32,983 nt of DNA. It comes from Eubacteriales bacterium (lineage in GTDB: Bacteria; Bacillota; Clostridia; Lachnospirales; Lachnospiraceae). Below are positions 12,227 to 22,652 of this stretch, in pieces. The translations under genes were made by a program, and so were the position numbers. Within the stretch, counting starts at the first letter, position 1. Every line of letters starts with the position of its first letter. The DNA is taken from positions 1 through 32,983 of the forward strand of contig JAUNCG010000025.1 of the NCBI GenBank assembly GCA_030526715.1, given 5' to 3'. The notes under the pieces were generated by a model that made no database searches, was not told the DNA's origin, and saw only the letters and a program-made list of their open reading frames with translations.

Positions 12227-12270
12227 AAAATCCGTGTGCAGAGGATCAGGGTTCTCTGCACACGGATTTT
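12227..12270. terminator. Strong two-way terminator, overlapping the end of the GGDEF gene
   Basis: AAAATCCGTGTGCAGAG pairs perfectly with CTCTGCACACGGATTTT (17 bp) around a 10-base loop. T-runs lie on both sides when read on each strand. The stop codon of the convergent GGDEF gene falls in the loop, so its last eight or so codons are written in the stem. Confidence 0.9.
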
Positions 12271-14249
12271 CTTCGATATTTTTTGTGCTCATACAGATCG
12301 CGATCTGCCTGAGACAGCACCTCATTGAGATCAAGAGCTCCTTCACACGTGAAAGACACGATGCCGAGGGTGATCTCGACATAAAAGGGCTTATCGGATT
12401 CGGCGTTCATGGTATGACAGCTCGCACGGATACGTTCGCGGAACCCGGTTACGAATTCCTCCGCCTCAGACAGTACCATGATAGCAAATTCATCGCCGCC
12501 GATACGCCCGAGAATATCCTTATCCCGCAGACAGGATCGCAGGATGCTACCTGCGGTACGGATGGCATAATTACCCTCCTGATGTCCCCATGTATCGTTG
12601 ATCTGCTTTAGATGATCCAGATCCGCATAGATCATATAGGCTCGTTGTCCCGGGGAATGAGCGCACAGGGCGCCTGCCTGATCCATAAAGCCGCGCAGAT
12701 TCAGAAGCGTGGTCAGCTCGTCATAGTAGGAAATAATATCCAGCTGACGGTTCCTTTCACGGATCATTTCCATGCTCTGGGAAAGCTCTGTCAGGTAGGC
12801 ATGCTCCTTTTTGCTTGCAAAGAGCAGCTGCAGGGATAGGCCGAGCTGAAGACTGATCACGTAAAAGAACGCAAACTCATCCTGCAGGATATCGCAGGCT
12901 AGGAGACCATACTGGACATCATTGGAATAGAGCAGAAAAATCGTATACTGCTGTGATTTTTCGTCGGAAAGATAGTCTGCGATACCATGCTCCCGGGAGA
13001 TAATGGGACGATCGTAGGGATAATAGGCAACCGTCTCGTTTCCATGATGATAGGCTGCTAGATACAGTGGCTCCGGAATGCTCCATGCTGACGCGGTCTC
13101 ATAGGAAACGGGAGCCTCGTGGAGCAGAAGGTACATATTACGATTGGAGAGCTTGCACAGATTTAGGATGATCTGGCGGCAAAATTCCACTTCATTCGTG
13201 ACATAATCGTTCAGATTGCGTGCCAGAAAGGGAAGATACCAGCTCTGCCTCTGAAATCTCGTGAGCTCTTTGCGCAAGGACGCCAGCTCGGCGGTGAGCA
13301 TGGAGCGATCTTTTTGAAACGATGTATAAATATCCTGCGCGCGAGTGAGCTCCGTTGTCGATCGTCCGCAGGATTCCCGATGGAAAAAATGAACCGGAAT
13401 ACGTTCGGATCTGATCGGTTTTCCGTGAAAACAATCCAGCAGATGGAATACCGCGCGTCTCCCCATCATGATGCCATCCTGAGAGACGGTAGTCAGAGGG
13501 GGAACCATATTTAATGCTTCAGAATAATTATCAAAGCCGGTGATGGCGATATCCTTTCCGATCTCCAGACCACGCTCCTTGCAGACACGATAACCGGCAG
13601 CAGCCATCTCGTCATTGGCAAAGACCAGCGCCTCCGCATCCGGATGAAGATCCAGCAGACGACGCACCTGTTCATCCACAAATTCCGAATAGTCACCCTC
13701 CGCCATCATGCTATCGTCCACAGGAAGACGATATTTTTTCATAATGCGCAGGTAGGCCTCACGACGCTCGACGGCATCGGTGTTCCCCTGCGGACCGCCT
13801 ACATATAGGATCTTGCCATAGCCGTGCTTGCAGATCAAATCCTCCATGATTATGCGAATACCATGATAATTGTCAGAAATTAGGTAGTGACAATTCGGCA
13901 GCTGCACGACGTCCGTCAGAACAAGCGTAGGGAGAGAACTGAATTTTTTCAGAAAAACATTGATATCATTCTTCTCCAGATAGGTACCGATAGTTCCGTA
14001 ATTGACGATAAGTCCATCCAGATGACTGATCAGACTATAGTCATAGATGGTATTGGGCTGGTAGTCGTAGGAGCTTTCGATATCCTTTTCCAGCATATTC
14101 TGAAAAAAGATTCTGGTATGGGTGCCAAGAAAAAAATACACATCCATAGACAGCTCTCTGGCTGCGCTGCGGATGCCCGCAATGATCTGCTGAGGAAAAT
14201 AAGTATGCACTCCGCCGATCAAAACACCGATGGAATAACGTTTTTTCAT
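12246..14249 (-). CDS. Diguanylate cyclase with LacI/PBP1-type ligand-binding domain
   Basis: Predicted to make c-di-GMP under control of a small ligand. Residues 1-300 are a periplasmic-binding-protein type 1 fold like the effector domain of LacI regulators (SIGVLIGG start, LVFANDEMAAAGY, IAITGFDNYSEALNMVPPLTTV). It lacks both an HTH and a signal peptide, so it should sense inside the cell. A coiled coil (308-332) and a GAF-like middle part (about 335-475) follow, then a second coil and the GGDEF domain (506-660). The catalytic loop GGDEF (584-588), DLDHLKQINDTWGH, and an RDKD inhibitory site (575-578) five residues upstream are all intact, which suggests an active, product-inhibited enzyme. 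A GGAGGTG site supports the start. It is divergent from the Tad pilus operon. Similar receptor-cyclase fusions are known in Clostridia. Confidence 0.9.
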   Translation of the reverse strand: MKKRYSIGVLIGGVHTYFPQQIIAGIRSAARELSMDVYFFLGTHTRIFFQNMLEKDIESSYDYQPNTIYDYSLISHLDGLIVNYGTIGTYLEKNDINVFLKKFSSLPTLVLTDVVQLPNCHYLISDNYHGIRIIMEDLICKHGYGKILYVGGPQGNTDAVERREAYLRIMKKYRLPVDDSMMAEGDYSEFVDEQVRRLLDLHPDAEALVFANDEMAAAGYRVCKERGLEIGKDIAITGFDNYSEALNMVPPLTTVSQDGIMMGRRAVFHLLDCFHGKPIRSERIPVHFFHRESCGRSTTELTRAQDIYTSFQKDRSMLTAELASLRKELTRFQRQSWYLPFLARNLNDYVTNEVEFCRQIILNLCKLSNRNMYLLLHEAPVSYETASAWSIPEPLYLAAYHHGNETVAYYPYDRPIISREHGIADYLSDEKSQQYTIFLLYSNDVQYGLLACDILQDEFAFFYVISLQLGLSLQLLFASKKEHAYLTELSQSMEMIRERNRQLDIISYYDELTTLLNLRGFMDQAGALCAHSPGQRAYMIYADLDHLKQINDTWGHQEGNYAIRTAGSILRSCLRDKDILGRIGGDEFAIMVLSEAEEFVTGFRERIRASCHTMNAESDKPFYVEITLGIVSFTCEGALDLNEVLSQADRDLYEHKKYRRKSVCREP

Positions 14250-14424: not shown

Positions 14425-14610
14425 ACTTAACAATTCTAAGCAATCTGTCATTTCGACAATATTTCCGACAGGGAAGAGAACTGCATTTGAAATTTAAGCT
14501 ACGCGTAATGATATGAGCGACAAAAGCCTTTGTCACTCATGCTGTTGTCCTTTGCGTCATGTAATTGCGCAAAGGCGCGCAGGAACAAGAATAACAGGAG
14601 GAATTTGCCT
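14425..14610 (+). promoter_or_regulatory. Long structured 5' leader of the Tad operon
   Basis: The leader holds an early CTGTC...GACAG pairing (around 14451-14475). A 12-bp hairpin with one mismatch follows, ATGAGCGACAAA against TTTGTCACTCAT around a 4-base AGCC loop (14513-14540). Another 8-bp hairpin pairs CCTTTGCG with CGCAAAGG (14549-14575). It ends in an ACAGGAGGAA site for the ATG at 14611. The second and third hairpins lack a long T-run, so they are not plain terminators. I could not match the leader to a class I c-di-GMP riboswitch, whose GACGCAAAGCC-type core is absent. An RNA switch or RNA-binding-protein site remains possible. Confidence 0.5.
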
Positions 14611-15657
14611 ATGAAGAAACAAAATTTTGCAATCTGTGATCTGGAAGTACGATATGCGTACAACTTGATGGAGTACATGTCGCAGAGACAGAAGATCCCG
14701 TTTGAAGTGCTGGTCTTTGCAGAGGTGGAGAGTCTGAAGCTGTTTACAGAGGAACACGCGGTGGATCTGCTACTGATCTCAGAGCGAATGATGTGTGACG
14801 CCGTGAAGCGTCTGGAGATCGGGAAGATTATGATTCTGACAGAAGGAGGGACACTGAAGGAATATTCGGATTATCCCGCGATCTATAAATATCAGGCCTC
14901 AGATCGACTGGTGTGTGAGGTGATGAACTATTGCGCGCAGGAGTCGCGGGAGCCCTTAGGGACAGCCCCCAATCGTAGCGCGCAGGTATACGGGATCTAT
15001 TCTCCGGTCAGACGCTGCGGAAAAACGTGTTTTGCGTTGACGCTTGGTCAGATGCTTGCGCGCAAACAATCGGTCATGTATCTGAATCTGGAGGCATATT
15101 CCGGCTTCGGGATGCTCACAGGGCAGCAGTTTACGGAGGATCTGTCGGACGTTATGTATTTTATCCGGCAGAAGCAGGGGAATCTGATCTATAAGCTGCA
15201 TGCGATCACCCGGCATTTGGGAAGGATGGACTATATTCCGCCGGCATTTTCCGCCGCAGATTTGCGGGAGGTTCGCATAGAGGAATGGCGGATCCTGATG
15301 CGGGAGCTCATGCGCATCGGAGGCTATGATGTTGTGCTCCTTGATCTGGGAGAGCTGACGGAGGATACGCTGGCGCTTCTGGCAGAGTGTGATAGTATTT
15401 TCAGCCCGACGATAGAGGATCTGCCTTCACGGAGCAAGATCGCTCAGTATGAAACACTGCTAGAGGAGATGGAGTACGAGGAGATTTTGGAGCGTACAGA
15501 ATATCTTCATCTTCCTTTTACGGAAATCACCTCTGCAGGAGAATATTTTCTGGAGCAATTGGTACAGAGCGAGATGGGAAGTTATGTGAATCAATTATTG
15601 GCAGGACGGGGGAGACAGGAAGCATGGAGCGGGAGCACAGAGAATTTAAAGAGCTGA
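14611..15657 (+). CDS. CpaE/TadZ-like ATPase of the Tad pilus system
   Basis: CpaE/TadZ proteins localise the pilus machine; they combine a receiver-like N-domain with a ParA/MinD-type ATPase. The 348 residues have an alpha/beta N-part (1-115) with ICDLEVRYAYNLMEYM and AVDLLLISERMM in receiver-like places. An ATPase part follows from 125, whose P-loop reads YSPVRRCGKT (130-139). The GKT is kept but the deviant-Walker signature lysine is not. YDVVLLDLG (239-247) fits the Walker B position. The ATG at 14611 is chosen for its strong ACAGGAGGA site; an upstream in-frame TTG overlaps the leader hairpins and is unlikely. The last 34 bases overlap the cpaF-like gene, which suggests coupled translation. 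Confidence 0.82.
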   Translation: MKKQNFAICDLEVRYAYNLMEYMSQRQKIPFEVLVFAEVESLKLFTEEHAVDLLLISERMMCDAVKRLEIGKIMILTEGGTLKEYSDYPAIYKYQASDRLVCEVMNYCAQESREPLGTAPNRSAQVYGIYSPVRRCGKTCFALTLGQMLARKQSVMYLNLEAYSGFGMLTGQQFTEDLSDVMYFIRQKQGNLIYKLHAITRHLGRMDYIPPAFSAADLREVRIEEWRILMRELMRIGGYDVVLLDLGELTEDTLALLAECDSIFSPTIEDLPSRSKIAQYETLLEEMEYEEILERTEYLHLPFTEITSAGEYFLEQLVQSEMGSYVNQLLAGRGRQEAWSGSTENLKS

Positions 15658-16847
15658 ACGGCAGATTGATGGAGGCGCTGGACACCTCCCGTGAGCTGAC
15701 GGACGGGGAGATCTATGAGCAGATCGATCGGATTCTTACAGAGCGGAGCCGGGGAGGGCGGTACAGTCTGCGCCGTAGAGAAGAGCTGCGCAGAGAACTG
15801 TTTAACTCTGTACGTAAGCTTGACATTCTGCAGGAGCTAGTGGAGGACGATACTATCACGGAGGTGATGGTAAACGGACTGGACGGTATTTTTGTGGAGA
15901 GCCGGGGAAGCGTGCGCCGCTGGGAGAAGCAGTTTTACTCCAGAGAAAAGATTGAGGATCTGGTGCAGGCCATTGCGGCTAAGAGCAATCGCATTGTGAA
16001 TGCTACGGTTCCTATCGTAGACGCCCGGCTGGAGAACGGAGCCAGAGTGAATATGGTGCTTCCGCCGGTAGCTATTAACGGTCCCATTATCACGATCCGA
16101 CAGTTTCCGTCGCATCCAATTGAGATGTCACAGCTGATCGCTTGGGGAGCGGTAACGGCGGAGGCCGTAGAGCTTCTGCGCAAACTGGTGATCGCAGGCT
16201 ACAACATTTTCATCAGCGGCGGAACAGGATCCGGAAAGACGACATTTTTAAACGCATTATCGGATTTTGTGCCGAAGGATGAGCGCATCATTACCATTGA
16301 GGATAATGCGGAGCTGCAGATCCGGGGGGTACCGAATCTGGTGAGGCTGGAGGCGCGCCGGGAGAATACGCAGGGAGAGCATGCGATCAGTATTCGGGAT
16401 CTGATACGCTCAAGTTTGCGCATGCGTCCAGACCGGGTGATCGTGGGTGAAGTGCGTGGAGAGGAGACGATCGACATGATTCAGGCGATGAATAACGGAC
16501 ATGACGGCAGTCTGTCCACCGGCCACGGGAACAGTCCGAGAGATATGCTGGCTCGTCTGGAGACCATGGTGTTGATGGGGATGGAGCTGCCGGTGACCGC
16601 GGTGCGAAGACAGATCGCGTCAGGTCTGGACGTGATGATACACCTTGGCAGAATGCGGGACAAAAGCCGCAAGGTGTTGGAGATTCTGGAGATCACCGGG
16701 TACGACTATGAGACGGAGGAGATCCTTACCCACACGCTGTATGAGTTTGAAGAAGGAAAAAAACGGGGAGAAAAGTTGAGCGGTACTCTGGTGAAAAAGG
16801 GAGAATTGCAGCAGAGAAGGAAGCTGGAAAGGGCGGGGCTGGCATAG
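15624..16847 (+). CDS. cpaF: CpaF/TadA family secretion ATPase
   Basis: Hexameric ATPase that powers extension, and probably retraction, of Tad pili at the cytoplasmic face. The 407 residues include an N-terminal helical part, the ITEVMVNGLDGIFVE beta unit typical of CpaF, and a P-loop ISGGTGSGKTT (about 197-207). The TIEDNAELQI Asp box, RMRPDRVIVGEVRGEE Walker B, and the SLSTGHGNSPRDML His box are also present, so it should be active. Like other CpaF proteins it lacks the tetracysteine zinc site of type II secretion GspE. The start overlaps the previous gene by 34 bases and has AGGAA before it. The stop codon is directly followed by the start of the tadB-like gene. Confidence 0.95.
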   Translation: MEREHREFKELNGRLMEALDTSRELTDGEIYEQIDRILTERSRGGRYSLRRREELRRELFNSVRKLDILQELVEDDTITEVMVNGLDGIFVESRGSVRRWEKQFYSREKIEDLVQAIAAKSNRIVNATVPIVDARLENGARVNMVLPPVAINGPIITIRQFPSHPIEMSQLIAWGAVTAEAVELLRKLVIAGYNIFISGGTGSGKTTFLNALSDFVPKDERIITIEDNAELQIRGVPNLVRLEARRENTQGEHAISIRDLIRSSLRMRPDRVIVGEVRGEETIDMIQAMNNGHDGSLSTGHGNSPRDMLARLETMVLMGMELPVTAVRRQIASGLDVMIHLGRMRDKSRKVLEILEITGYDYETEEILTHTLYEFEEGKKRGEKLSGTLVKKGELQQRRKLERAGLA

Positions 16848-17586: not shown

Positions 17587-19011
17587 ATGTGGATTTATTT
17601 TATATTTGCCGCAGGTCTCGGAATCTTGTTTATGATGGCGGCCGGGACGGAGCTGCCTCAGGACATGGAGGTGAAGCGGTGGCAGAAGCCGTTTTATCAA
17701 TGCGGGTGCTTTCTTATCGAACATCTGGAGAGGGTGGGGAAGCCGATCACAGAAAAGCAGCGATATCAATTGACGCTGGAGAAAGCAGCGTATGTATTTA
17801 TGATCCTGTTTGTGGGACTGGGGTGCGCCGTTGCGATAGAGGCTGCCTATGGCAGCGGACAGCTGCTTCTGGAAAAGACGCAGCTGCAGCGTCCGGATCA
17901 GGGAATGGGAGCGCAGGTTCAAGAGCTGCAGGTACAGGTGGAGGATATGACGGAGGTCGAGGACATTCGGATCGACCTGAAGGAGAGGGCATACACAGAA
18001 GCAGAAAAAAGAGCGCTTCTGGAGGAGGCAGTGTCCACACTGGATACGATCGTGCCGGGAACAAATGCTTCCGTGGATGAGGTGCGGGGCAAGGTAGAGC
18101 TACCGACGGAGCTTTTGGAGGGCAGAGTAAAGGCGGCATGGTTTCAGGAACCCATGGGACTTTTGGATAATGAGGGAAACATAACGGAGGAACTGAAGTC
18201 GGAGGGGGAAATACTGGAGCTGAAAGCGATTCTGACATGTGAGGATCAAGAAATGGAGTATCGGCTGGCGCTGCATTTGATGCCAAAGATACGGACGCCT
18301 TGGGAGACACTGATGCATGAGCTGCAGGGAAAGCTTAGGGAAGAGCAGGAGAAGACGGCAGATCAGGAGAAGCTGCCTCTGCCACAGGAAGTTGATGGTC
18401 ATCGTCTGATCTGGATGACGCCGGCGCATTCTTTTGCAGGGATCTGTGTTGGCGTGACCATATTGGCGGCGGCATTTCTGTGGATCGGGAAGGAACAGGA
18501 GTACCGAAATATGAAAAAACAGCAGAGAAGACAGATGATACTGGACTATCCGGATATTCTGTTTAAGCTGGGGATGCTTTTGAACGCAGGACTGACGATG
18601 CAGAGCGCCTTTCGGAAGGTTGCCATGGAGTATCGACAGAGAAGAGAACGACAGAAGACCGGAAAAAGGTCAAAGAAGACGATCGAAAGATTTGCGTATG
18701 AGCAGATGCTGACAGCCTGTTATGAGATGCAAAGCGGTGTCCCGGAGAGCAGAGCATATGAGAACTTTGGACATAGATGCGGGACGGCCGGATATATAAA
18801 GCTGGGTACCCTGCTCTCCGGAGGCTTGCAAAAAGGCTCCGAAGGTCTTACAAAAATTTTGCTGGAGGAAGCGATGTTATCCATGGAAGAACGTCGTCAG
18901 GCGGCAAAGCAGTTCGGGGAGGAAGCAGGCACAAAGCTGCTCCTTCCCATGACCGGAATGCTGCTGGTGGTGCTGGCGGTACTGATGATGCCCGCCATGA
19001 TGGCATTTTGA
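17587..19011 (+). CDS. tadC: TadC-like platform protein with an inserted extracellular Ig-like domain
   Basis: Second T2SSF-family platform protein of the pilus, 474 residues against about 300 for a plain TadC. Hydrophobic segments lie at about 3-20, 67-88, 283-301 and 450-472. The T2SSF domain is at about 316-440 (LDYPDILFKLGMLLNAGLTM, then GYIKLGTLLSGGLQKGSEGL and FGEEAGTKLLLPM). Between the second and third membrane segments about 190 residues are inserted and should face outside. Their core (about 120-235) reads like the atrophied bacterial Ig domain: a helix (TEAEKRALLEEAVSTLD), then VRGKVELPTELLEG, an AAWFQEPMGLLDNEGNI turn, and ELKAILTCEDQEMEYRLALH. Plain TadC proteins have nothing there. 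It starts one base after the previous stop. Confidence 0.85.
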   Translation: MWIYFIFAAGLGILFMMAAGTELPQDMEVKRWQKPFYQCGCFLIEHLERVGKPITEKQRYQLTLEKAAYVFMILFVGLGCAVAIEAAYGSGQLLLEKTQLQRPDQGMGAQVQELQVQVEDMTEVEDIRIDLKERAYTEAEKRALLEEAVSTLDTIVPGTNASVDEVRGKVELPTELLEGRVKAAWFQEPMGLLDNEGNITEELKSEGEILELKAILTCEDQEMEYRLALHLMPKIRTPWETLMHELQGKLREEQEKTADQEKLPLPQEVDGHRLIWMTPAHSFAGICVGVTILAAAFLWIGKEQEYRNMKKQQRRQMILDYPDILFKLGMLLNAGLTMQSAFRKVAMEYRQRRERQKTGKRSKKTIERFAYEQMLTACYEMQSGVPESRAYENFGHRCGTAGYIKLGTLLSGGLQKGSEGLTKILLEEAMLSMEERRQAAKQFGEEAGTKLLLPMTGMLLVVLAVLMMPAMMAF

Positions 19012-19060
19012 GGTGAAGCAGGGAAATGTTTTGTATACGCTTGGAAAGGGGGGTGAGAAT

Positions 19061-19231
19061 ATGAGAAAGATTTTGCGAAGACTCCGAATGAATGAGGAGG
19101 GGATCGGAACAGTGGAGATTATCCTGATTCTTGTCGTTCTGATCGGTCTGGTCATCATTTTTAAAAGTCAGCTTACCGGTCTGGTAAATAGTATTTTCAG
19201 TAAAATCGTCAGTCAGAGCAACGGAATCTAG
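19061..19231 (+). CDS. flp: Flp1-like pilin
   Basis: Major structural subunit candidate of the Tad pilus. The 56-residue precursor has a basic leader ending in NEEG, then IGTVEIILILVVLIGLVIIF. Cleavage after Gly14 would give a mature pilin of 42 residues with Glu at position +5, as in type IV pilins. The tail is short and Ser-rich (KIVSQSNGI). The residue after Glu is Ile rather than the Tyr of proteobacterial Flp; this matches the Flp1-like group of Firmicutes. A GTG-initiated longer form is possible, but the ATG at 19061 has an AAAGGGGGGTG site at correct distance. The gene is isolated by 49 bases from tadC and nine from the next gene. Confidence 0.9.
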   Translation: MRKILRRLRMNEEGIGTVEIILILVVLIGLVIIFKSQLTGLVNSIFSKIVSQSNGI

Positions 19232-19240
19232 GAGGTGTGT

Positions 19241-20791
19241 ATGAGACAGTACAGATGTCGGGGGACGATCACAGTATTTTTGAGTCTGATCAGTGTATTG
19301 TTTTTGTCCCTTCTCTGTACGTCGATCGAATCGGCGAGAATTCAGGGAAGCAGGGCAAAGGCGGCGGCCGCGCTGGATATGGGGCTGTTTTCCGTGCTGG
19401 GAGAATTTGAAAGGGGACTGCTGGAAAAGTATGACGTCTTCTTTTTGGACGGAGCCTATGGAGGCGGCAGCTACAGTCGGGATCATATGACGCAGAAGCT
19501 GCAGGAATATATGGACTATAACGCATCGCCCAATAAGGGACTGTTGTTCCGGGGCGTAGATATGTTTCCGGTGAAGGTAAAGGAGGTAGATATTACAGGA
19601 GTGCAGCTGGCTACGGATGAGAAAGGGGAAGCATTTTATCAGCAGGCAGTCGGCTTTATGAAAGAAAATCTTGGCACGGAGCTGGTGAGTACGGCATTAC
19701 AGCGTATGAATGATGCGAAAAAGCTGGAACAGGCAGGGCAGGATTATGAAAGACAGGACAGAACGAACGAAACACAGCTGTCTACATTACAGCAACAGCA
19801 GGCGCAGGAAAAGCAGAGGATAGAAGAGGAACAGAAGGCGGCCGTCGAGGCTTCGGGCGGCGAGGTGCAGGAGACAGAGGCACAGCTTCCGGCAGTAAAG
19901 CCGGAAAAGAATCCGCTGGAGGTGATCAAGGCGATACGGCGGAAGGGATTGCTGCGGCTTTTGTTGGGAACGGATGCACAGATCTCGCAGAAGAAGCTGC
20001 CGGGAGATATTCCGTCAAAACGAAAATGCGAGCGAGGCAACCTGACGGTAGAGAGAAAGCATCGGGGCTTGACGGCGGATCTGATTTTTCAGGAGTATCT
20101 GTTTCAGAGATTTTCCCTGTTTACAGATGAGAAGAAGGAAGGAATTTTAGATTATGCGTTGGAATACATATTGTGTGGGAAATCCAGTGATGAGAAGAAT
20201 CTAAAGAGTGTGGTGACCAGACTGCTGCTTTTGCGGGAAGGGGCAAATTTCGCATATATTACCACGAGCCCTGAGAAGAAAGGAGAGGCGGACGCACTGG
20301 CAGCGCTGCTGGTGGGAGCCATTCCGATTCCCGGTCTGATACCGGCGACCTCCTATGCATTGCAGCTGGTATGGGCTTATGCCGAAAGCCTGCTGGATGT
20401 GCGTGAATTGCTGTTGGGAGGAAAGGTACCGCTGTTTAAGGAGGCAGCAGATTGGAGATTGTCACTTTCTTCTATTCCGGAGCTGCTTGATATCTTATAT
20501 AGCGCCGGAGGATCCGGAGATCACGGAGTATCCTACAGCGGCTATTTGCAGATGCTGTTTACGCTGGGAAAGAAGTCGGCGTATCCGATGAGAGCGCTGG
20601 ATATGGCAGAGGGTGTCTTAAAGAGCATGGAGGGAATGGAGAGCTTTCGAGCGGATCATGCAGTATGCAAGATCTCGGCAACGTCGGATTTCAGTATACC
20701 GCCGATGTTTTTAAAGGTATCTGCAGCATTCCTGAAGACCGGAGTAGTTCAGACGGATTACCATGCATCGGGGAGTTTTTCATATTATTAA
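19241..20791 (+). CDS. DUF5702 domain-containing protein, TadG-like minor pilus component
   Basis: A 516-residue protein that begins with a prepilin-like hydrophobic helix (GTITVFLSLISVLFLSLLCT), followed by ESARIQGSRAKAAAALDMGL. The rest is predicted to lie outside. This start and the phrase FERGLLEKYDVFFLDGAYG are typical of DUF5702 proteins, which accompany Tad loci in Clostridia and resemble TadG. Residues about 165-210 form a Gln/Glu-rich coiled region. Near 365-390 is a second hydrophobic patch (ALLVGAIPIPGLIPATSY). The ATG at 19241 is chosen over a GTG two codons earlier because AGGAGG lies five bases before it. The molecular role is unknown; a minor pilin or assembly partner is likely from context. 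Confidence 0.8.
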   Translation: MRQYRCRGTITVFLSLISVLFLSLLCTSIESARIQGSRAKAAAALDMGLFSVLGEFERGLLEKYDVFFLDGAYGGGSYSRDHMTQKLQEYMDYNASPNKGLLFRGVDMFPVKVKEVDITGVQLATDEKGEAFYQQAVGFMKENLGTELVSTALQRMNDAKKLEQAGQDYERQDRTNETQLSTLQQQQAQEKQRIEEEQKAAVEASGGEVQETEAQLPAVKPEKNPLEVIKAIRRKGLLRLLLGTDAQISQKKLPGDIPSKRKCERGNLTVERKHRGLTADLIFQEYLFQRFSLFTDEKKEGILDYALEYILCGKSSDEKNLKSVVTRLLLLREGANFAYITTSPEKKGEADALAALLVGAIPIPGLIPATSYALQLVWAYAESLLDVRELLLGGKVPLFKEAADWRLSLSSIPELLDILYSAGGSGDHGVSYSGYLQMLFTLGKKSAYPMRALDMAEGVLKSMEGMESFRADHAVCKISATSDFSIPPMFLKVSAAFLKTGVVQTDYHASGSFSYY

Positions 20792-20813
20792 GAGGAAATG
20801 GGGGTGTGCAAAA

Positions 20814-21716
20814 ATGTCCTCTTTTGCAGACAGAGAAGGATGTAAAAGACAAACTGAGGAGAATGTAACGGAAAGGATGTCTGCTTTCCCGGCAGGAAGA
20901 GATCCGGTTCTGTATGAGAAGAGGATATTTCTGCGCATCCTTCGGGGGAGCTTAACGCTGGAGACAGCCTGTGTACTGCCTTTTTTTCTTCTGGTGATGA
21001 TTTCGGTACTGCAGTTTGCACGCATCGGTACCGCATCCTCTGCGATACTGGCCGGGATGCAGGATGCAGCCAAGGATATGGCAGCCTATGCATATATACG
21101 GGAGCTGGGAGTTACGCCGGGGGACGCAGTGGCAGGTGATCTGATCGCAGGCGGACTTTCGGCAGCCTATGCGAAGAGCAGAGTAGACCGGCAGCCGGGA
21201 TATCGAAAGGCGGATGGTATTTTTTCGCTGCTTCAGACCTCCTTTCATGATGAAATCATTGATCTGGCGGGCACTTATCAAATGAGACATGCGCTGTCGG
21301 CGCTTCCGTCGCTTAGGATAAAAAGTGTGCTGAGAGCCAGAGTGCGGGCGTGGACGGGACGGATCGGAAGCGGCGGGAACGGAAGTGATGAGGGAGAACA
21401 GCAGGAAAAGGAGGAGATGGTATATATGGCGAAGACCGGAACAGTATACCATAAGGATCCGGATTGTACACATATACGCCTGTCTATTCAGAAAATGGAT
21501 CGGGCGAAGGTAAATGCTGCGCGCAACATCTCCGGAGGAAAATATCATGCCTGTGAGCGTTGCAAGACGAGCGGTGCGAGTACCGTGTACGTGACGGTAT
21601 ACGGGGATAAATATCATGGTTCTATTGGCTGCAGTGGATTAAAGAGAACGGTATCAAGAGTCCCGCTTTCAGAAGCAAAGGGGTTAAGACCCTGTTCAAA
21701 ATGTGGAGGAGGATAA
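20814..21716 (+). CDS. TadE-like pseudopilin with duplicated Cys/His C-terminal module
   Basis: A 300-residue protein with a prepilin signal RGSLTLETACVLPFFLL; cleavage after Gly45 puts Glu at +5 as in TadE. The middle part should lie outside. The C-terminal quarter has two copies of a small module. The first has H213, C218, C247 and C250 (VYHKDPDCTH, then HACERC). The second has H268, C273, C294 and C297 (KYHGSIGCSG, then RPCSKC). Each has the spacing H-x4-C, then CxxC, which suggests a metal site like that of Ada-type zinc-binding domains, or redox cysteines. Two starts are possible; the ATG at 20814 has a GGGGGTG site, while one at 20763 would overlap the previous gene. The stop lies one base before the peptidase start. 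Confidence 0.78.
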   Translation: MSSFADREGCKRQTEENVTERMSAFPAGRDPVLYEKRIFLRILRGSLTLETACVLPFFLLVMISVLQFARIGTASSAILAGMQDAAKDMAAYAYIRELGVTPGDAVAGDLIAGGLSAAYAKSRVDRQPGYRKADGIFSLLQTSFHDEIIDLAGTYQMRHALSALPSLRIKSVLRARVRAWTGRIGSGGNGSDEGEQQEKEEMVYMAKTGTVYHKDPDCTHIRLSIQKMDRAKVNAARNISGGKYHACERCKTSGASTVYVTVYGDKYHGSIGCSGLKRTVSRVPLSEAKGLRPCSKCGGG

Positions 21717-21717
21717 G

Positions 21718-22185
21718 TTGGAATTTAGATATATGGTATTGCTGCTGTATCTTGCGGCAGCGGCAGTACGGGATGTGAGACACAGGAGCGTATCTGTGAA
21801 ATCAGCAGTATTATTTGCGGCAGCGGCTATGCTTCTGCAGTTCATAGGAGGTAGTACAAGGGGAGTAGATCATGGCTGGCAGGAGAGGATGCTTTTATAT
21901 GGAGTATGGATCATCACAGGCGCGCTTCCGGGACTGACGCTGCTTGTGCTGGCATGGGTAACCGGAGAATCCATTGGGTACGGAGATGGGATCGTGTTAC
22001 TGGTGACGGGATGGTATCTGGGATGGTATGGAAGCATCGGAGTATTGCTGATGGGACTGCTGCTCATCTGCCCGGCGGCGCTGTGGATGCTTTTTTGGAA
22101 AAAAGCGGATCGAAGAGCGGAATTACCGTTCTTGCCGTTTTTGTTGGGAGGATATCTGATATGGTTGCCGGGTATGATGAAATAA
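21718..22185 (+). CDS. Prepilin peptidase, A24 family (TadV/CpaA-like)
   Basis: Membrane aspartyl protease that removes the leader from Flp pilin and the TadE-like pseudopilins. The 155 residues are nearly all hydrophobic. They contain the two catalytic aspartates expected: one in AVRDVRHRSV after the first segment, and one in the GYGDGIVLL motif (GxGD). The N-terminal methylase zinc domain of full PilD is absent, as is usual for TadV/CpaA. The best start is TTG at 21718, because GGAGGAGG lies seven bases before it; a GTG at 21703 would place that site inside the gene. It is packed between two TadE-like genes, which are its likely substrates. Confidence 0.85.
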   Translation: MEFRYMVLLLYLAAAAVRDVRHRSVSVKSAVLFAAAAMLLQFIGGSTRGVDHGWQERMLLYGVWIITGALPGLTLLVLAWVTGESIGYGDGIVLLVTGWYLGWYGSIGVLLMGLLLICPAALWMLFWKKADRRAELPFLPFLLGGYLIWLPGMMK

Positions 22186-22199
22186 GAAGGAGTATTTAG

Positions 22200-22652
22200 G
22201 TGAAAACAGAGGGGAGAAACACAAAATTGCGCGGAAGCTATACTGTGGAGGCGGCTTTGCTGATGAGCATGATAGTACCGCTTTTGACAGCGATCATTTA
22301 TATGGGATTTTTTCTGCACGACCGGGGATTTTTACAGGCGGCGGCACACGAGGCGGTATGTCTCGCCAGTCTGCATGCAGAGGATGATACAGATATCAAC
22401 GGAGAGATCGACAGATTGATAAGTGGGAGAATGCTGGGAAGCAGGGGAGTAAAGGGAGAAATGGAAGAAGGAAAACGACAGGTGAGCGTAAGCTATACGG
22501 GAAGCTTTCGCATTCCGGGTATAGTACAGAGCTTTTTCGGAAATACGGGGATCTCTGTCGGGACGTCGGTATCGCTGAGTACAGAGAGACCATCACGCCG
22601 GATTTCGCGGATCAGGGGCGTAGTAAAGGTAGTAGAGCATATCAGGGATTAA
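22200..22652 (+). CDS. TadE-like pseudopilin
   Basis: Small minor pilin, 150 residues, with the prepilin signal LRGSYTVEAALLMSMIVPLL. Cleavage after the Gly gives Glu at +5. The hydrophobic helix continues to about residue 40 (AIIYMGFFLHD) and is followed by a polar outside part with no cysteine module, unlike the other TadE-like protein of the operon. The sequence VEAALLMSMIVPLLTAIIYM is typical of the TadE family in Clostridia. The start is GTG at 22200, with AAGGAG nine bases before it. Its place directly after the peptidase gene supports processing by it. The basic C-terminus (RRISRIRGVVKVVEHIRD) is unusual for an external tail. Confidence 0.82.
   Translation: MKTEGRNTKLRGSYTVEAALLMSMIVPLLTAIIYMGFFLHDRGFLQAAAHEAVCLASLHAEDDTDINGEIDRLISGRMLGSRGVKGEMEEGKRQVSVSYTGSFRIPGIVQSFFGNTGISVGTSVSLSTERPSRRISRIRGVVKVVEHIRD

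Follow-up and report, generated by a model that had tools for sequence, protein, structure and literature searches.

A predicted outer pair of immunoglobulin-like units, probably nested, on the TadC platform protein of Lachnospiraceae Tad pilus loci

The tadC gene and its loop

The window analysed here is a stretch of 32,983 nucleotides from a Eubacteriales bacterium of the family Lachnospiraceae (assembly GCA_030526715.1, contig JAUNCG010000025.1, forward strand), and it carries a Tad pilus operon (Table 1) in which the platform protein TadC contains a long loop that very probably comprises two immunoglobulin (Ig)-like units. TadA, TadB, TadC, Flp, a prepilin peptidase, TadE and TadZ occur together at the locus and make up a Tad (T4c) gene set, in which TadZ, TadB, TadC, the peptidase and the first TadE fall below the curated Pfam cut-offs and are assigned partly by operon position. 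The window TadC matches PF00482 (T2SSF) at an expect value (E) of 9.6e-4, below the cut-off, and 92 of its 94 aligned relatives match this family; these were taken from 120 listed homologues (of 539), with near-copies and some partial sequences left out. In addition, the domain that follows helix 3 has a structural match to PilC, EpsF and OutF, corresponding to the cytoplasmic domains of EpsF and OutF and the N-terminal domain of PilC. The window TadC is a platform protein with a single six-helix T2SSF domain.

The hydropathy segments listed in Table 1 delimit a loop of 197 residues (86–282). A sequence-only reading of positions 17851–18433 (TadC residues 89–283) had placed about 170 surplus residues between two membrane segments. 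The location was borne out, as alignment with insert-less TadC puts the surplus between helices 2 and 3, but the size was underestimated: same-class TadC proteins that lack the insert have abutting helices here, with a gap of only 0–6 residues (22 proteins measured directly), so that the surplus amounts to about 190 residues. The same gap agrees with the statement, made in that reading, that the outer loops of platform proteins are normally short. The lysine plus arginine fraction of the loop is 0.110, with a mean net charge of −19.1 (210 relatives), compared with fractions of 0.225 for residues 20–66, which are predicted to be cytoplasmic (156 relatives), and 0.233 for residues 302–330. Because of the low fraction in the loop, the positive-inside rule predicts that residues 86–282, hereafter the ectodomain, lie outside the membrane.

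Table 1. Positions in the window of tadC, its parts and the other genes of the Tad operon
Feature	Position	Strand	Remarks
tadC platform protein, 474 residues	17587..19011	+	four predicted membrane helices, 197-residue outer loop
Predicted membrane helix 1, residues 1–19	17587..17643	+	hydropathy; helix 2–18 in full structure model
Predicted membrane helix 2, residues 67–85	17785..17841	+	hydropathy; helix 57–87 in full model
TadC ectodomain, residues 86–282	17842..18432	+	two atrophied Ig units, probably nested; predicted outside membrane
RPxxGxG juxtamembrane motif, residues 102–108	17890..17910	+	R102 and G106 nearly invariant
Ig-B first half, beta hairpin, residues 110–131	17914..17979	+	model strands 110–118, 124–131; V116–L274 coupling
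Ig-A, contiguous aBig unit, residues 137–235	17995..18291	+	helix, LP, W185 strand, DNEGN turn, hairpin
Ig-B second half, residues 238–277	18298..18417	+	helix, invariant L265-P266, strand 272–277; kept in L170
Predicted membrane helix 3, residues 283–301	18433..18489	+	hydropathy; helix 284–333 in full model
T2SSF domain, residues 305–450	18499..18936	+	predicted cytoplasmic
Predicted membrane helix 4, residues 451–469	18937..18993	+	hydropathy; helix 452–473 in full model
tadZ-like ATPase gene	14530..15657	+	PF21194 TadZ-like receiver domain E 0.0014, below cut-off
tadA/cpaF motor ATPase gene	15624..16847	+	PF00437 E 2.3e-51; TIGR03819 E 6.8e-84, below curated cut-off
tadB partner platform protein, 245 residues	16848..17585	+	PF00482 E 4.9e-5, just below cut-off
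Flp1-like pilin gene	19013..19231	+	PF16982 E 5.8e-22
TadG-like DUF5702 gene	19235..20791	+	PF18960 E 3.3e-81; TadG-like via weak PF13400 matches in relatives
TadE-like gene, Cys/His-rich tail	20763..21716	+	PF07811 E 1.3e-4, just below cut-off
Prepilin peptidase (TadV-like) gene	21703..22185	+	PF01478 E 6.4e-5, below cut-off
Second TadE-like (TadF-like) gene	22200..22652	+	PF07811 E 4.7e-7, above cut-off
DUF6382-FHA gene	22711 (start)		last listed gene of operon

Two predicted Ig-like units in the ectodomain

The surplus had been read as one atrophied bacterial Ig (aBig) domain. The elements named for it were found in the full structure model, namely a helix (138–155), the segment VRGKVELPTELLEG (166–179), the DNEGN turn (194–198) and two strands (208–218 and 221–231), which together form the contiguous unit Ig-A. 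A single domain does not account for the loop, however, as strands 110–118 and 124–131, helix 238–256 and strand 272–277 had been missed, and these probably form a second, split unit, Ig-B. Structure prediction gave an Ig-like fold: the match to the arabinanase AbnA spans residues 137–235 in one piece, and the helix and antiparallel strands are arranged as in a solved aBig-type domain. The aBig motif in the insert was recognised first, and the Pfam matches came afterwards. In the proposed profile search, 55 of the 94 relatives matched aBig_2 (PF20578) at E ≤ 0.01, with a best E of 5.9e-12, and the precomputed Pfam annotation has this domain on some TadC homologues of this type. Across the 94 sequences, G197, P233, L265 and P266 are invariant. 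A two-unit ectodomain on TadC is very probable.

In the family consensus, the order hairpin, helix, LP and W strand occurs twice, and a profile–profile comparison aligned residues 90–190 with residues 191–282 over 68 columns with a score of 23.7 (maximum of 15.2 in 20 column shuffles). The pairing of the elements was addressed through residue couplings, computed in-house from 210 TadC sequences (effective number 175) and covering 16110 residue pairs. The strongest coupling of all, V116–L274, connects the first hairpin to the last strand and thereby joins the two halves of Ig-B; it ranked first or second in each of eight subsamples, and its equivalent in Ig-A, A183–A214, ranked 33. Among the top 184 couplings, 46 of the 2109 segment pairs expected from nesting were found versus 17 of the 2102 pairs expected from self-contained units (Fisher p 1.6e-4, a guide only, since related sequences give non-independent couplings). 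An alternative with two permuted Ig units in tandem, each self-contained and using a hairpin, helix and last strand of its own, would suit the tandem order of the sequence repeat and the one-unit TadC proteins described below, whose unit necessarily pairs within itself. In addition to the couplings, the one-piece AbnA match of residues 137–235 and a natural variant stand against this arrangement, which is very improbable. This variant (L170:6871–7917, minus strand), from genome G142 of the same family, is a one-unit TadC of 349 residues in a complete operon, and its ectodomain matches profile columns 2–40 (a weak match, E 0.08, read by eye) and 141–187 with none between, so that it retains the two halves of Ig-B and lacks Ig-A.

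Several observations weigh against the nested arrangement. The window TadC alone gave no aBig_2 match at E up to 10 in the Pfam scan, and hhalign assigned the ectodomain repeat a probability of just 33%. The block of the first hairpin has a predicted local distance difference test score (pLDDT) of only 69–73 in the full model, whose predicted template modelling score is 0.65; in an ectodomain-only model the pLDDT of this hairpin is 88–93 and the last strand is reduced to two-residue pieces. Other strand pairs that were looked up are mostly unremarkable in the coupling analysis (114–276 at rank 6819, 185–212 at rank 346 and 118–274 at rank 138). The pairing within Ig-B is derived from the couplings and the DSSP strands of the full model (272–277 as a strand), not directly observed. 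On balance, Ig-A is likely, with good confidence, to be nested inside the split Ig-B. Because the halves of Ig-B adjoin helices 2 and 3, Ig-B is predicted to sit at the membrane and Ig-A farther out.

Distribution and natural variants

The TadC insert is a family-wide feature. TadC homologues were found in all eight genomes of the genus and in 146 of 150 genomes of the family, which was sampled with one genome per genus except for the window's own genus. Names borne by homologues (Muricoprocola, Limivivens and Lachnospiraceae) likewise suggest Lachnospiraceae. By hand count of the listing, the match crosses the insert in 135 of these 146. For four of the remaining 11 the matches were not listed (G014, G055, G070 and G135), and in seven the best match did not reach far into the insert; these comprise three insert-less, one one-unit and one two-unit TadC and two in which TadC extends over two frames or pieces. 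In two family genomes (L171 and L174), tadC is split into two frames, which may reflect true decay or an assembly error. In a close check of the window together with 44 family genomes, chosen for good scores and sufficient space on the contig, the ectodomain profile matched in 45 of 45 operons, the loop measured 189–205 residues in 44, and TadB, TadC and Flp were adjacent in 43.

At the level of the order, the TadC profile has matches in 49 of 116 genomes, and most strong matches cross the insert; some cover the T2SSF part only (e.g., G211, G171 and G210) and some lie in long frames. In the class, the figure is 101 of 245. Beyond the order, class matches below E 1e-25 cover only about positions 274–461 in frames of 170–373 residues, mostly near 290, with the exception of G460 and G418 (f45) and G308 (f26), all three of which carry the complete ectodomain; G269, G362 and G491 (f26) have a one-unit TadC. 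Five f66 genomes (G325, G351, G399, G421 and G500) contain TadC-like frames of 542–557 residues that match in the T2SSF part only. No clear ectodomain-bearing TadC outside the class was found among 249 genomes of the phylum, 53 of which gave any match; a weak match in G591 covers positions 51–153 (E 8e-4). In the order, class and phylum samples, the ectodomain part of the profile also matches frames of about 700–6400 residues, and for this reason putative Ig arrays of long surface-type proteins are a likely source of the insert. The window's own genome also encodes a BspA-type leucine-rich protein (G000:C7; L001:1–1581, minus strand) that matches Big_2 and, below the threshold, aBig_2.

The 94 TadC sequences from fetched loci comprise 67 with a two-unit long loop, three with one unit (89–105 residues) and 24 without the insert, after five script classes had been corrected by eye (L091 and L094 to insert-less; L029, L059 and L066 to two-unit). 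Eight one-unit TadC proteins were collected, two of them named Anaerovoracaceae and Eubacterium, and the single unit lies at the same place in all; a motif resembling RPxxGxG is also present in some. A profile of these eight sequences, from which P0121 (a 99% copy) and P0127 (no such insert by eye) were left out, scored 31.4 against Ig-B (at most 12.5 after shuffling) and 31.7 (13.2) against the second repeat, and it scored lower against the first repeat (21.3; 11.4) and Ig-A alone (17.0; 11.7).

Three members of the window's family, G019, G127 and G072, have TadC proteins of 255, 235 and 207 residues without the insert (L166:7734–8498, L167:6295–6999 and L168:7080–7700). Their operons are largely kept: those of G127 and G072 are otherwise complete, and the peptidase and second TadE were undetected in G019. 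In two other family genomes, a second Tad locus encodes an insert-less TadC (L172:6155–7018 and L173:6571–7422) beside the insert-type TadC, and the DUF5702 proteins of these second loci have 1232 and 1284 residues. DUF5702 proteins of the insert-less operons L088–L094, L096, L097 and L105 have 718–1203 residues, some of them with coiled-coil-like stretches, versus 438–752 residues in eight insert-type operons.

Possible function and comparison with known systems

With moderate confidence, the two nested aBig units can be read as a likely hinge-jointed collar that surrounds the Flp pilus at its base and docks TadG- and TadE-like partners; the docking-collar function taken by itself is tentative. 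TadA, TadB and TadC have been modelled in a 6:3:3 ratio in the available text of two papers (PMC11300603 and PMC12307814), and a trimer of TadB–TadC heterodimers was proposed in the part available of a study on the PulF trimer (PMC10790770). Given the 6:3:3 model, three TadC copies would raise six Ig-like units in a ring, which may sit where the processed pilin exits the membrane. Because the same fold has been described as a hinge in AbnA, the collar would move along with the TadC helices as the motor drives them, and it may keep the DUF5702 (TadG-like) and TadE-like proteins close to the growing fibre. Since operons without the insert persist, the collar would tune the machine and be dispensable for its existence. 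A bolder version is rather unlikely, in which the pilus motor reaches outside through a jointed collar of six units that grips Flp and passes TadG and TadE to the tip, with the strokes of the ATPase driving the clamp; in this version, evolution would have varied the collar between zero, one and two Ig units for each TadC.

Coevolution with possible partners was assessed by mirror-tree analysis of 41 of the 45 loci, in which the correlation with TadA, TadB and T2SSF was removed from the ectodomain distances and p was obtained by permutation. The partial correlation of the ectodomain is strongest with DUF5702 (0.32, p 0.001), followed by the first TadE-like protein (0.23, p 0.002), and it is weaker with Flp (0.14, p 0.048) and the second TadE (0.13, p 0.034); the ectodomain does not follow the equally variable peptidase (0.08, p 0.16). 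Three points tell against a docking collar. The mirror-tree signal is a weak and unspecific hint, because T2SSF also correlates with DUF5702 (0.345, with fewer controls); the three family operons that persist without the insert indicate that no collar is required; and the ectodomain is more variable than the T2SSF domain, with mean pairwise identities of 0.255 and 0.441, respectively. As to the neighbouring genes, the C-terminal 99 residues of the first TadE-like protein (21417–21713, plus strand) contain two similar Cys/His units (YH....C ... C..C) resembling a doubled metal-binding module on a pseudopilin, and a LacI-type sugar-binding sensor fused to GGDEF is encoded just upstream of the operon on the opposite strand (12246–14249).

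It is unlikely that the Ig-like units serve as a wall anchor that binds peptidoglycan or a wall polysaccharide and fixes the pilus machine beneath the wall. An aBig-type unit is known in an extracellular glycosidase, AbnA, and the matches of the ectodomain profile to long frames would fit such a role; however, Domain3 of AbnA has been described as a hinge, with a binding role proposed for Domain4, the ectodomain is strongly acidic, and its invariant residues look structural. Less probable again is a passive spacer, that is, a captured Ig unit of a surface protein whose length is tolerated and which has no specific partner. The low identity of the ectodomain and the persistence of insert-less and one-unit TadC among the usual operon neighbours would agree with it, and the crossing of the insert in nearly all family genomes with a homologue, the narrow range of loop lengths and the invariant positions argue against it. 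It is hardly credible that the insert substitutes for a missing outer-membrane channel, as suggested earlier, or for the periplasmic RcpC conduit. In its favour, the window's own genome (98% complete) gave no match to Secretin (PF00263), which as RcpA belongs only to the diderm form of the Tad system, nor any to CpaB or RcpC; TadC contains no RcpC or CpaB domain. Against it, insert-less Flp1/DUF5702-type loci likewise have no listed RcpC within 20 kilobases (kb) on the contig, the RcpC of insert-less genomes, where listed, lies on other contigs or at least 39 kb away (in drafts, where adjacency across contigs is possible), both f45 genomes with the insert have RcpC, on other contigs, and many genomes of the class lack the insert. 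Since operons of the same type elsewhere do without the insert, replacement of the channel is unlikely. Among nine family genomes of the class sample, RcpC was found only in G207, as a weak match; G398 points to a different Tad subtype, because its TadC matches weakly, RcpC is about 4 kb away from it and no Flp1-like match is listed.

In the available parts of surveys of type IV pili in Gram-positive bacteria (PMC3244431) and in archaea (PMC4858521), no TadC of this type appears, and a search of the open-licence literature, with subscription papers and preprints outside its scope, found no description of an Ig-bearing TadC. The aBig_2 domain call is already in databases; the arrangement and its meaning were not found in print. 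According to the available text of PMC10191384, the platform protein is the least well characterised of the core proteins in type IV filament machines. A structured outer module in most sampled family members, with operons that lack it or have half of it as natural controls, makes a pilus-side role of this protein testable, and it bears on how a thin pilus is guided through the wall of a cell, likely monoderm, in which neither a secretin nor RcpC was detected. The nested Ig units would also illustrate how a beta domain can hang between two membrane helices and double there.

Known systems resemble the window TadC only in part. Platform proteins of the GspF/PilC family, including TadC/CpaH of Tad (T4c) pili, are described with a smaller periplasmic loop in the available part of PMC10191384, in contrast to the 197 residues found here. 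In the archaeal study that treats TadC and an Ig-like domain, the domain is on the pilin and not on TadC, as far as its available text goes (PMC11178852). Ig-A shares with PF20578 (aBig_2) the helix, the LP motif, the W strand, the D-x-x-G turn and the hairpin, whereas in TadC a second unit is probably split around the first, with membrane helices on either side of the pair. Domain3 of AbnA, the GH43 arabinanase of Geobacillus stearothermophilus, is a single contiguous unit of a secreted enzyme with no membrane part, unlike TadC. The TadC collar would surround the pilus on the outer side of the inner membrane, as does RcpC (CpaB) of diderm Tad pili, which is, by contrast, a separate protein that forms a dodecameric periplasmic conduit according to the available text of PMC12307814.
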